Source of the DNA: Pseudobutyrivibrio sp. OR37
GTDB taxonomy: Bacteria; Bacillota; Clostridia; Lachnospirales; Lachnospiraceae
Reading direction: 5' to 3'
Assembly: GCF_900113655.1 (NCBI RefSeq)
Contig: NZ_FOQF01000019.1
Location: forward strand, 1 to 64,000
Length of the DNA stretch: 64,000 nt
Shown: piece by piece, positions 51,844-55,493 of the stretch
How positions within the stretch are numbered: position 1 is the first letter of the stretch
How the letters are laid out: each line of letters opens with the position of its first letter
The notes under the pieces: model-generated
Seen by the model: only the letters and a program-made list of their open reading frames with translations
Told to the model about the DNA's origin: nothing
Databases searched by the model: none
Translations under genes and position numbers: made by a program

Positions 51844-52890
51844 CTAGCTTAGCTTTCCTGTGAGTCTACGTTCCATCTTATTAAGCTCATCAAGCTGGCC
51901 CATATCCATCCATGTGTTTTCATTGATTGGATAAACGCCTACCTTTTTGCCATCATCCTTAAGTCGATTGATGATATCTGGGAAGCCTAACGCTTCGTCA
52001 TCCTTGATATAATCAATAACCTCAGGCTCAACTATATAAATACCAGTGTTTGTAAAAAAGCTGAACTCTGGTTTTTCTTTCATATCGATAATATTTCCAT
52101 GCTCTCCAAATTCGACCACGCCATAAGCAACCTGGAAGTTTCTAAGGGAGCATACCATAGTAATTAGATTACCCTCTTTTTTATGATGCTCATAAATTTT
52201 AGAGTAATCCTCTTCAATTAAGATATCACAATTAGTTAAGATAAATGTTTCGTCGATTTTCCCTCTTAACAAGGCAAGTCCTCCGCCTGTGCCAAGTGGC
52301 TTATCTTCATCAACAAAATCAATGTGATATGGTCTTTCAGCCTCGCCAAAATATGACTTAATCATATTCTTCTTATGATTAACAATCATAATCATTCTAT
52401 CAATTCCATAATCTGCAAAGCTATCCATGATAAGCTCGGCAATAGGCTTCTCGCCCACAGGAATAAGAGGCTTTGGAAGGATTCTGGTATATGGATAAAG
52501 CCTTGTGCCCTTGCCGCCTGCCATCATTACAACAGGGGTGTTAAGCTCTGCATGCTTTTTATAATGATTCTCACTCCAGAAGACAGTATCAATTACATGA
52601 CCTTCGTCATCAACAATAGGAAGACCTTCGATGTTATGGCGATAGAGGAAATTGCGAGCATCCTCTTTTTCTTCCTCTTTCAAGCTTCTAGGCTTATAGT
52701 TTGCAATTGTTTTTACAGGCTCGTTTAAATCTCCACCTGATAAAATGTATCTACGAACATCACCTTCTGAAAGAGCTGCCAAAAGTTTATTGTCATCATC
52801 AACAACAAAAACTGTGCGGCGGCTGCTAGCATCAAATGTTCGCATTGCATGTAAAATTGTGTCATCTTCCTTTATGAATACATTTTCCAT
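51844..52890 (-). CDS. CBS-domain nucleotidyltransferase (PtmE/LegX-like)
   Basis: This protein of 348 residues has two CBS domains (residues 1 to about 115, TVFVVDDDNKLLAALSEGDVRRY and NIEGLPIVDDEG). A nucleotidyltransferase follows with VVMMAGGKGTRLYPYTRILPKPLIPVG (residues 120-148). This architecture is that of PtmE/LegX, which makes GDP-glucosamine for the GDP-linked legionaminic acid pathway. Its neighbours LegC and LegB support this. The CBS pair may bind nucleotides and regulate activity. Repeat copy 1 (52898-53064) fills its leader. Confidence 0.88.
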   Translation of the reverse strand: MENVFIKEDDTILHAMRTFDASSRRTVFVVDDDNKLLAALSEGDVRRYILSGGDLNEPVKTIANYKPRSLKEEEKEDARNFLYRHNIEGLPIVDDEGHVIDTVFWSENHYKKHAELNTPVVMMAGGKGTRLYPYTRILPKPLIPVGEKPIAELIMDSFADYGIDRMIMIVNHKKNMIKSYFGEAERPYHIDFVDEDKPLGTGGGLALLRGKIDETFILTNCDILIEEDYSKIYEHHKKEGNLITMVCSLRNFQVAYGVVEFGEHGNIIDMKEKPEFSFFTNTGIYIVEPEVIDYIKDDEALGFPDIINRLKDDGKKVGVYPINENTWMDMGQLDELNKMERRLTGKLS

Positions 52891-52897
52891 AAGTTAT

Positions 52898-53064
52898 CCA
52901 ATCCGCAATCTTCCATTGACATATATATAAACACAACTGACACGCTTTCGCTCTACTTTCACTCGTTGCGTTACGTAAGATGCCACTGCGTGCCATCTAA
53001 GTAACGACGGCTCAAGACGGTCAGTCTTAGTTTATATATATGTCAATTCCAGATTGCTCATCTA
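52898..53064 (-). repeat. Structured 165-base intergenic repeat, copy 1 (leader of the PtmE/LegX-like gene)
   Basis: A long palindromic element. Outer arms TTGACATATATATAAAC (52916-52932) and GTTTATATATATGTCAA (53030-53046) are perfectly complementary, and GCAATC/GATTGC extends them. The conserved core includes TCGTTGCGTTACGTAAGATG and CATCTAAGTAACGACGG, with apical CACTGCGTG. The minus-strand end GCGGATTGGAT stands just before the gene start. A second copy is at 54341. Confidence 0.9.
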
Positions 53065-53090
53065 TATTTTTTACTCCATAAAATTCTACG

Positions 53091-53152
53091 CTAACAATAA
53101 AATATTTCTTTCAATCACTAGATGTTCATTCCAGAAATATTTTATTGTTATC
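53091..53152 (-). other. Long hairpin after legC
   Basis: AACAATAAAATATTTCT (53093-53109) and AGAAATATTTTATTGTT (53133-53149) form a perfect 17-bp stem around a 23-base loop, beginning about 7 bases after the legC stop. No T-run follows. The arms are related to the hairpin at 46862-46926. Confidence 0.85.
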
Positions 53153-53158
53153 TGAATT

Positions 53159-54325
53159 TTATTCACTGAAATTTTTAATTACATCTATTACACGACGTAC
53201 GCCGGACTCGTCGAGGTTGGTTGAGCATGGTACATTTACTACGCGGTGCCAGTACCATGGTGCGCAGGTTAAGTCGTAGGTGCGAGCGCCTTCGTATGGA
53301 AGCTGGTCAGAGATAAGTCCCCAAATTGGACGTGACTGAATATGAGCTTCCTTGAGTGCCTCGATAAGCTTGTCGCGGCCAGTTTCATCATTTTCAAATA
53401 CTACTGAATAGAACCAGTAGTTGCTACGGATGCCTGGTCTGAAATCCTGAACGTGAAGTCCTGGAATCTTATCGATAGCTTCCTTGTAAAGCTGATAGTT
53501 CTTTGTCTTAACCTTGATGAAATCTTCCAGCTGTTCCATCTGAGCAAGTCCAAGTGCTGCCTGAAGATTTGTAAGTCTATAGTTATAGCCGATTTCATCG
53601 TGGATGAAATTAGCCTGGTCAGCCTTTGCCTGAGTTGTTAAATGCTTTGCATGAGCAAGAAGTGCCTCATCATTAGAAACAATCATACCGCCACCACCAG
53701 TGGTAATAATCTTGTTTCCATTGAAGGAATAGCAGCCTAATGTACCGATTGTACCGGCAAACTTTCCAGCGTACTTACCCTCTGTATAATATGTTCCAAG
53801 TGCCTCTGTGGCATCCTCGATAACCTTGAGATTATACTTTTCAGCTATAGGCATGATGGCTTCCATATCTGCCATGTTACCAAATACATGCACTACAACC
53901 ATTGCCTTGATCTGACGACCAGTTGCTCTATCAACAAGCTTGCCATCTGTGAAATCACACTCTTCTTCACAGAACTTCTTAAGCTTTACTGGGTCCATAC
54001 AAAGGCTATCATCGCAGTCCATGAAAATTGGCTCTGCACCTGCATACTTTGTAGGGTTTACTGCTGCAATAAATGTAAGTGTAGGAACGATTACTGCATC
54101 ACCTGGCTTTACACCGCAAAGCATCAAGCTGATGTGAAGTGCTGATGTACCATTCTGTGTGCTGACTGCAGCTGGAGTATGAACATACTCGGCTACCTTC
54201 TTTTCGAAGTCTGATACATAAGGGCCTGCAGTGGATACCCACTCAGTCTCTACTGCATCAGTAACGTACTTCAATTCATTTCCCTTTAAATTTGGCACTG
54301 AAAGTGCGATAAATTCATCTGCCAT
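53159..54325 (-). CDS. legC: LegC family PLP aminotransferase
   Basis: This is a DegT/DnrJ-type aminotransferase of 388 residues. ATG 54325 has AGAGGT 6 bases before it; the longer frame to 54382 lies inside a repeat and is rejected. The N-terminus FIALSVPNLKGNELKYV, the block EWVSTAGPYVSDFE, VIEDATEALGT (PLP aspartate) and SFNGNKIITTGGGGM (PLP lysine) follow LegC. It converts the 4-keto sugar nucleotide made by LegB to a 4-amino sugar in the legionaminic acid route. It is flanked on both sides by copies of the structured repeat. Confidence 0.9.
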   Translation of the reverse strand: MADEFIALSVPNLKGNELKYVTDAVETEWVSTAGPYVSDFEKKVAEYVHTPAAVSTQNGTSALHISLMLCGVKPGDAVIVPTLTFIAAVNPTKYAGAEPIFMDCDDSLCMDPVKLKKFCEEECDFTDGKLVDRATGRQIKAMVVVHVFGNMADMEAIMPIAEKYNLKVIEDATEALGTYYTEGKYAGKFAGTIGTLGCYSFNGNKIITTGGGGMIVSNDEALLAHAKHLTTQAKADQANFIHDEIGYNYRLTNLQAALGLAQMEQLEDFIKVKTKNYQLYKEAIDKIPGLHVQDFRPGIRSNYWFYSVVFENDETGRDKLIEALKEAHIQSRPIWGLISDQLPYEGARTYDLTCAPWYWHRVVNVPCSTNLDESGVRRVIDVIKNFSE

Positions 54326-54340
54326 TTCTCTACCTCTAAT

Positions 54341-54501
54341 CCAATCCGCTAAAACATAAATCATATACACATACAACGACACGCTTGCGCTCTACTTGCC
54401 CTCGTTGCGTTACGTAAGATGCTCCCTTTGGGACCATCTAAGTAACGACGGGGCAAGACGGTCTTATGTATGTATATATGCTTTCTGTTTCAGCTCATCT
54501 A
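54341..54501 (-). repeat. Structured 165-base intergenic repeat, copy 2 (leader of legC)
   Basis: It has the same core as copy 1 (TCGTTGCGTTACGTAAGATG, CATCTAAGTAACGACGG) and the same ends (CCAATCCGC and GCTCATCTA on plus). The outer arms are different but still self-complementary (CATATACACATAC with GTATGTATATATG), and the apical hairpin TCCC-ttt-GGGA replaces CACTGCGTG. It fills the gap between legB and the legC ribosome site. Confidence 0.9.
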
Positions 54502-54515
54502 AATTTGTTAGTATT

Positions 54516-55493
54516 TTAAATGTTATAGATATCTACCTTGTATTTGTCAAGGTTGCCACGTAAGAACTCGATTGTCTCGGCGAGACCTTGTTCGAAGGTG
54601 TACTGTGGCTTCCAGTCTGTGAGGCGCATGATTTTTTCGTTGCTTCCAAGAAGGCGGTTTACCTCACTCTTTTCTGGGCGAAGACGGTCTTCGTCGCAGA
54701 TGATGCGAGCGTTTGGATTAATCTGACGGATAAGCTCTTCTGCAAGCTGTCCGATAGAGATTTCCTTCTGTGTCGCAATATTGATTTCCTGGCCGATTGT
54801 CTTATCGCTTTCGTACATAGCGATGAAACCGTTGGCTGTATCCTTAACGTAGTTAAAATCACGTGTTGGTGTTAAAGAACCAAGCTTGATTTCTTCCTTA
54901 CCTGCAAGAAGCTGTGTGATGATTGTAGGAATTACGGCACGAGCTGACTGACGTGGTCCAAATGTATTGAATGGACGCACGATTGTAACAGGTAAATCGA
55001 ATGAACGATAGAAAGACTCTGCTAATCTATCTGCACCAATCTTTGTAGCTGAATATGGTGACTGGCCCTGGTATGGGTGCTTCTCATCGATTGGCACGTA
55101 CTGAGCTGTACCATAAACCTCTGATGTAGATGTAACAAGTACACGGATGCCTTGGTCTCTAGCTGCCTGAAGCACATTTAATGTACCCTTGATGTTTGTA
55201 TCTACATAAGCATCTGGGCTGTGATAACTAAATGGTATTGCAATAAGTGCTGCTAAATGGAATACAGCATCTACGCCCTTCATAGACTCACGAACACCGT
55301 TAGGATCGCGGACATCACCAGCGAATACCTCAACATGATCCATGATATCCTTTGGAAGAGTATCGAGCCATCCCCAATTATTAAACGAATTATAATAAAC
55401 GAAGGCTCTTACCTCATATCCCTTTTTAACTAATTCCTCAACTAAGTGAGAACCAATAAATCCATCTGAACCTGTAACTAATACTTTACTCAT
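54516..55493 (-). CDS. legB: NAD-dependent 4,6-dehydratase LegB
   Basis: This short-chain dehydrogenase of 325 residues has VTGSDGFIGSHLVEELVKKGY (Rossmann), FVYYNSFNNWGWLDTLP, TSTSEVYGTAQYVPIDEKHP and catalytic YSATKIGAD. The N-S-F-N-x-W-G-W block is distinctive for LegB, the NDP-GlcNAc 4,6-dehydratase of legionaminic acid synthesis. The ATG is preceded by AAGGAG and overlaps the upstream gene by 8 bases. The product feeds LegC, encoded next. Confidence 0.92.
   Translation of the reverse strand: MSKVLVTGSDGFIGSHLVEELVKKGYEVRAFVYYNSFNNWGWLDTLPKDIMDHVEVFAGDVRDPNGVRESMKGVDAVFHLAALIAIPFSYHSPDAYVDTNIKGTLNVLQAARDQGIRVLVTSTSEVYGTAQYVPIDEKHPYQGQSPYSATKIGADRLAESFYRSFDLPVTIVRPFNTFGPRQSARAVIPTIITQLLAGKEEIKLGSLTPTRDFNYVKDTANGFIAMYESDKTIGQEINIATQKEISIGQLAEELIRQINPNARIICDEDRLRPEKSEVNRLLGSNEKIMRLTDWKPQYTFEQGLAETIEFLRGNLDKYKVDIYNI

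Follow-up and report, generated by a model that had tools for sequence, protein, structure and literature searches.

Covarying MITE-type hairpin elements of Lachnospiraceae and their operon-bound behaviour in Pseudobutyrivibrio

The stretch of DNA analysed here, 64,000 nt of Pseudobutyrivibrio sp. OR37 (contig NZ_FOQF01000019.1, positions 1 to 64,000; hereafter the window), contains two members of a previously undescribed family of MITE-type structured repeats with unusual, lineage-specific behaviour. The same core resembles neutral mobile DNA in most of the sampled Lachnospiraceae and is operon-restricted and strand-specific in one rumen genus, which offers a clean natural comparison. The explanation that we favour, with a probability of about 0.45, is that a MITE-type hairpin has been retained in Pseudobutyrivibrio as a generic intercistronic mRNA structure. 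The original prediction, which described two covarying structured elements in the leaders of nonulosonate genes, is confirmed as an observation, and the phenomenon is larger in extent than was stated.

Two copies in the legB–legC operon and their covarying core

Read along the minus strand, the region comprises, in order, legB (54516..55493, a LegB-type NAD-dependent 4,6-dehydratase, TIGR04180 above cut-off), copy 2 (54337..54501), legC (53159..54325, a LegC-family aminotransferase, TIGR04181 above cut-off), copy 1 (52896..53064) and a gene combining a CBS domain with a nucleotidyltransferase (51844..52890). The product of this last gene has no NCBIfam model above cut-off, and its PtmE/LegX-like label comes from the original prediction. 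Each copy, itself on the minus strand, measures about 165 nt and occupies much of its spacer. As had been claimed, each precedes legC or the CBS-nucleotidyltransferase gene; however, the spacers are intercistronic within this gene order rather than leaders. A third copy lies 5.1 kb past the end of the window, preceding rfbC.

Both copies read TA-GATGAGC on the 5′ side and GCGGA on the 3′ side, copy 1 ending in GCGGA-TTGGATA and copy 2 in GCGGA-TTGGATTA, after which comes the AGAGG that precedes the legC start. The terminal GCGGATTGGAT reported for both copies does lie near start codons, its end being 5 and 13 nt from the next one, but among the copies listed it is found only in these two, and the 3′ end common to copies is GCGGA-N-TA. 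When aligned, the window copies share two ungapped blocks of 93% identity (52939-52983/54378-54422 and 52993-53022/54434-54463). The conserved core extends over 52939..53022 in copy 1 (GACC...GTGTC, with a three-way junction, a bulged rod and an apical stem-loop) and over 54378..54463 in copy 2, and it includes a mini-hairpin with a GNRA tetraloop, GC-GAAA-GC at 52944..52951 and GC-GCAA-GC at 54383..54390, respectively, all on the minus strand. A 28-nt inverted repeat, 89% complementary, surrounds copy 1. The minus-strand (gene-sense) sequences fold as a single rod with z-scores of −4.74 and −6.96, and for either copy none of 200 shuffles folded as well as the native sequence. Adjoining copy 1 in the same spacer is a separate, perfect 18-bp inverted repeat (TAACAATAAAATATTTCT) with a 23-nt loop (53092-53150), which is found at the same place in another genome (G006, locus L017).

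The core shared by copies of the family, about 85 nt, consists of a three-way junction, a long bulged rod and a mini-hairpin; its structure was hand-drawn from the folds of 47 of the 53 DNA-search matches, which make up alignment A1. P2 is GAC/GUC in the core of the aligned copies. P3, the long rod, carries a conserved single A bulge, a YA bulge, a UU/UAY internal loop and a G.G mismatch, and its apical stem covaries freely. P4 is a 2-bp hairpin with a GNRA loop in all 47 aligned copies (GAAA 27, GCAA 15, GGAA 3, GCGA 2), its stem changing from GC-GC to GU-AC in two of them. The corresponding loop check in 20 copies from other genera demanded G first and A last, leaving only the purine at position three informative.

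Covariation in this core is very strong. Standard pairs fill 92.0% of the cells among the aligned Pseudobutyrivibrio copies, and 21 of 33 pairs have changed on both sides. The 46 distinct aligned copies hold 217 double-changed cells, whereas shuffling leaves 65.3 ± 6.5 and the slid controls 20-34. Of five covariation measures, four exceed every shuffle, while the fifth, further pair types, gives no excess in this alignment (39 vs. 38.6 shuffled). Among the matches listed under labels other than Pseudobutyrivibrio, 96 matches drawn from 82 of 94 loci hold 585 double-changed cells vs. 171.7 ± 14.1, and all five measures exceed every shuffle; these loci were sorted by label, so some may derive from a Pseudobutyrivibrio MAG. 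The pair counts of alignment A2 lean towards the model's structure, to which A2 was fitted; A1 was not model-fitted, but the structure was drawn from the folds of its own sequences.

When arms were exchanged between elements, their pairing had a median of 0, a 95% point of 4.5 and a maximum of 14.5; the arms of the elements themselves have a median of 14.5, and 123 of 127 copies lie above that 95% point. Compensatory change is also seen at fixed loci: two or more Watson-Crick types occur at 19 of 25 variable pairs in the tpi spacer (12 distinct sequences), at 24 of 35 at pyk (antisense) and at 27 of 38 in the pfl antisense copy, a count that favours G-U over A-C because it uses RNA folding. 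The covariation thus backs the view that the differing arms and apical loops remain self-complementary and that a folded element is under selection.

Distribution, ends and mobility

The element is short, non-coding, multi-copy and dispersed, as a MITE is. A DNA search gave matches in 22 of 29 Pseudobutyrivibrio genomes, and a covariance model (R1, E up to 0.001) in 26 of the 29, with up to 15 per genome. The covariance-model search of Lachnospiraceae that had been proposed returned matches in 86 of 397 family genomes, representing 75 of 334 genera, at most 9 candidates being scored per genome. At class level, 8 of 391 genomes matched, all 8 of them Lachnospiraceae; weak matches may be lost there because the class scan used stricter filters. 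Among the matches listed, those to the core pattern are labelled Pseudobutyrivibrio and mostly Lachnospiraceae, with a few MAGs labelled Muribaculum, Blautia or Gastranaerophilales, and the viral contigs scanned with this pattern gave none. Rfam yielded no match at gathering score in the window and 18 further sources, and four matches at E up to 5, none over the core. A literature search confined to open-licence papers recognised no description of the family. The copies are not a gene-unrelated scatter, since they covary and are tied to operon spacers, and the Rfam and literature searches gave no match to a described element or RNA family; the suggestion of a miniature mobile element holds as a resemblance, with MITE-like behaviour in other genera, but not as a match to a described one.

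The Pseudobutyrivibrio ends, GATGAGC and GCGGA, form no clear inverted repeat. In the consensus built for the 94 sense copies (52 motifs on the 5′ side, 47 on the 3′ side), TA flanks both ends at a frequency of at least 70%. Empty sites exist, but the spacers are too diverged to prove target-site duplication. Read by eye in 24 genomes, the pgk-tpi spacer contains the element in 13 and is empty in 6; two more carry hairpin B, one carries hairpin C and two have other sequence. Of 26 asnS-asnA loci, likewise read by eye, 5 are empty, 5 have the element in sense and 6 in antisense, the remainder having hairpins B or C or other sequence, or being unreadable. A motif scan recovered 38 units bearing the shared ends; the core pattern is present in 27 and missing from 11, three of which belong to subclass D. 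These shared-end units and the site occupancy are consistent with insertion and loss of exchangeable units.

Several related or irregular sequences were seen alongside. Hairpin family B (about 100 nt, AACAAGC...GCTTGT and GCGTAAC) occurs in the same spacers as the element, part of its copies carrying TA-GATGAGY...CGGAY-TA ends (loci L199, L186, L182, L210, L219, L095:2403, L019:9666 and L031:16575). The G+C-rich hairpin family C (GCGCGAGCAGG...CCTGCGGGAG) has 19 matches in 19 Pseudobutyrivibrio sources (among them L112:6527, L067:1986, L224, L172 and L183), and at asnS-asnA a block of hairpin C plus element is present in both orientations between species. Subclass D is a second-tier group of the element family whose R1 scores are about 42-58 bits or below; its core is of the CACTTAG type, and it shares the GNRA hairpin (L071:3330, L078:2197, L110:3138, L056, L057, L058 and L059). 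Three copies (L033:3146, L027:17581 and L081:4105) are broken by another small hairpin element (GATTGCnTnAGCAATC), located in L033 at the GNRA mini-hairpin. Split matches occur at L074:3607-3777 and L142:3871-4044, and L020:9378 has three successive TTAGATGAGY motifs on its 5′ side, the last being the copy's own 5′ end.

Terminal repeats are found in part of the other genera. Among the matches listed there, 23 of 26 repeat pairs closer than 250 bp enclose a core, most at 193-198 bp; end pairs occur at other distances too, so several units seem to share ends. The terminal repeat TAGGYAATTGCGAAACTC, allowing up to 3 mismatches, has 47+46 sites in genome G215 (control 4+10) and 28+22 in G122 (control 2+3), with no excess in G140 (1+5 vs. 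2+1). A search for an autonomous transposon with these repeats found short units, and several contigs end inside them.

No partner transposase with the same ends was found in limited searches of the DDE_3 and Y1 families. DDE_3 is absent from all 29 Pseudobutyrivibrio genomes. Y1 is encoded in 10 of them and does not track the number of elements: it is present in the element-rich G009, G010, G021 and G028, absent from the likewise element-rich G006, G011, G012 and G023, and carried by the element-free G020. By eye, the 18 most recurrent ORF clusters at the 94 non-Pseudobutyrivibrio loci (among the matches listed) include no transposase, the two largest resembling an ABC transporter and a response regulator. 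Where two elements lie close together, their 5′ ends point at each other in 7 of 7 cases in Pseudobutyrivibrio, most of them at one pfl spacer and two within one contig, and, for pairs within 500 bp read by eye, in 8 of 8 cases at the other-genera loci listed, which suggests a dimeric unit. Loci with facing pairs are L029, L032, L033, L074, L096 and L026, and L149, L164, L249, L251, L257, L283, L286 and L307.

Operon placement and strand bias

In Pseudobutyrivibrio, the 127 copies of at least 60 bits comprise 94 sense copies, which point the same way as both neighbours (++), 24 antisense copies, opposed to both (--), two in mixed context (one +- and one -+) and 7 that are not classifiable. Background spacers of at least 100 nt are co-directional in 209 cases, divergent in 45 and convergent in 12. 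Set against this background, the ratio of 118:2 for co-directional vs. other placement gives p = 2.6e-8, although the copies are not independent, orthologous ones being counted separately; by locus the figure is 33:1, a hand count. One of the two mixed contexts, L102, is probably miscalled, since its downstream gene was found in sense in the analysis of neighbouring proteins; ORFs were called mechanically at a minimum of 90 aa. Between convergent genes there is no enrichment (1 of 120 classified copies vs. 12 of 266 background spacers). From the core end of sense copies to the called start of the next ORF, the median distance is 49.5 nt.

Grouping of the 102 proteins whose starts lie no more than 140 nt from a Pseudobutyrivibrio copy gave 21 clusters, each named from one member. 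The largest are triose-phosphate isomerase (13), RmlC (13), LegC-type aminotransferase (12) and CBS-nucleotidyltransferase (10), followed by an Lrp/AsnC regulator (8), an epimerase/dehydratase (6) and the PFL activase (6); asnA, purD, a pfkB-type kinase, a FabA-domain gene and an MFS gene are also preceded by copies.

Outside the genus, the 69 elements among the matches listed, found by a pattern that requires a well-kept core, have neighbours in the classes ++ 16, -- 19, +- 8 and -+ 8, the other 18 having an open side, so that 51 have both neighbours. The mismatches in the arms differ likewise. In Pseudobutyrivibrio, isolated non-Watson-Crick arm pairs in unique contexts, read on the element's own strand, are G.T in 49 cases and A.C in 4, whereas the other genera give 33 and 37 among the matches listed, totals restricted to the four classes in which both neighbours are seen (Fisher p = 7e-8, the mismatch events coming from related sequences). 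This mixed context and these symmetric mismatches are as expected of neutral palindromic mobile DNA. The Pseudobutyrivibrio bias is independent of orientation, with G.T/A.C at 32/3 in sense copies, 16/1 in the antisense set (26 copies, two with one neighbour unseen) and 1/0 in a divergent copy; purine mismatches follow it, with A.G at 37 (sense) and 9 (antisense) vs. T.C at 3 and 0. Because G.T greatly outnumbers A.C when mismatches are read on the strand of the element, one strand of the element is under structural selection in Pseudobutyrivibrio. At the antisense copies this may mean that transcription covers the element strand as well, or that the strand is needed as ssDNA or RNA for mobility.

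Two other accounts of the mismatches were considered. Selection on a pure dsDNA palindrome, suggested by the scarcity of G-U in the core, was rejected on the arm counts. Strand-biased mutation, whether driven by transcription or by replication, should reverse the bias in antisense copies, and no such reversal is seen.

Competing readings and known systems

According to the favoured reading, this Lachnospiraceae family of short non-coding hairpins would have originated as MITE-type mobile DNA, and in Pseudobutyrivibrio the hairpin would be transcribed within polycistronic mRNA. There it may act as an exonuclease barrier or as a processing site for a double-strand-specific RNase, setting how stable the upstream part of the operon transcript is relative to the downstream part, and it would sense no pathway metabolite. 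We favour such a generic intercistronic structure because of the intra-operon placement, the sense bias, the roughly constant distance to the next start, the lack of a terminator in the window copies and the replaceability of the element. The covariation, with its preserved bulges and GNRA loop, the G.T excess in the genus compared with other genera and the compensatory change at the tpi spacer also speak for it, and Correia and ERIC elements provide precedents. Any effect is not essential, since at any one operon the element is missing from many species. The antisense copies count against this reading, because they keep G.T above A.C on their own strand (16:1), the reverse of what selection at the mRNA level predicts.

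That own-strand bias, independent of operon direction, fits a purely selfish mobile element without host function, whose sense-strand structure would serve mobility as ssDNA or through an RNA intermediate and whose intra-operon placement would mark where insertions are tolerated or targeted. Among the matches listed outside the genus, where gene context is mixed, the core moreover retains G.U pairs in its sense orientation (at one pair in 70 of 96 matches, at a second in 36 of 96), and the terminal repeats in some genomes, the empty sites, both orientations at asnS-asnA and the facing pairs in and beyond the genus all fit. However, compensatory change accumulates at orthologous copies, no enzyme was found through DDE_3 and Y1 or, by eye, among the recurrent ORF clusters, and the element is not enriched between convergent genes, unlike pneumococcal BOX, RUP and SPRITE (PMC3049150). 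We regard this alternative as serious but doubtful.

A wider form of the mRNA reading, which we think unlikely, is a modular set of intercistronic RNA hairpins that can stand in for one another; recruited from MITEs in Pseudobutyrivibrio, they would now tune, through one strand, the expression between cistrons within central-metabolism and surface-sugar operons. The element, subclass D and hairpins B and C can, on this proposal, share TA-GATGAGY...RCGGAY-TA ends and swap at the same operon spacers. Recruitment of bacterial MITE hairpins as mRNA elements becomes testable with operons that are occupied in some genomes and empty in others, such as pgk-tpi and asnS-asnA.

It is quite improbable that each copy is an independent small RNA gene, expressed from its own promoter on the element's strand also when antisense, even though this would account for the same strand bias in antisense copies. 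By a crude sigma-70 score, 6 of 94 sense copies reach at least 8 for a 5′ promoter and none of the reversed controls does, so some copies may start transcripts; however, the sense mean is 6.65 vs. 6.43 reversed and 6.6 shuffled, the antisense mean is 6.07 vs. 6.43 and 6.53 with 0 of 26 at 8 or above, and the number of promoter-like sites in the window region is that expected by chance (4 vs. 4.0).

Far less credible still is a riboswitch-like regulator of nonulosonate or surface-sugar genes, which the original prediction had offered from the position of both window copies and which the LegC-type, RmlC, CBS-nucleotidyltransferase and epimerase/dehydratase clusters among the relatives would suit. 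A special tie to nonulosonate genes is not supported, because copies also precede tpi, rfbC, asnA, pflA, purD, the pfkB-type kinase, lrp-type, FabA-domain and MFS genes, and because orthologous spacers exist with and without the element, which other hairpins can replace. This serves as a warning that a covarying structure in front of a biosynthesis gene can be a repeat and not a riboswitch. Intrinsic terminator or attenuator hairpins, which strong hairpins between genes might bring to mind, are equally implausible, with 0 terminator-like sites vs. 0.9 expected in the window region (window copies only) and no enrichment between convergent genes.

ERIC and Correia (NEMIS/CREE) elements measure about 100-200 bp. 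According to PMC10969869 and PMC3049150, Correia-containing mRNA is cut by RNase III and ERIC changes transcript levels. These elements resemble ours in being dispersed, small, palindromic and folding, and they are reported to affect how the mRNAs carrying them are processed or how abundant these are. By their descriptions they differ in host group; our element has a three-way junction, a GNRA hairpin, bulges kept by covariation and locus-specific arms, and is near-exclusively intra-operon in one genus. BOX, RUP and SPRITE are likewise small, interspersed, structured, MITE-like repeats, BOX being modular, but according to PMC3049150 they are over-represented between convergent genes, where only 1 of 120 classified Pseudobutyrivibrio copies lies. 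REP/REPIN sequences with RAYT share irregular hairpins and inverted close pairs; however, REPs are given as 20-40 bp in PMC3733652, compared with a unit of about 165-200 bp here, and the Y1 transposase does not track the number of our element. The main text of PMC8040213 reports 3161 candidate structured RNAs of human microbiomes, 250 of them palindromic, which are similar in being structured palindromes found by comparative genomics; that main text does not name Lachnospiraceae, and our element may be one of the 3161. Finally, integron attC sites are also bulged, strand-specific hairpins, whereas the copies described here lie in operons such as pgk-tpi rather than in cassette arrays.
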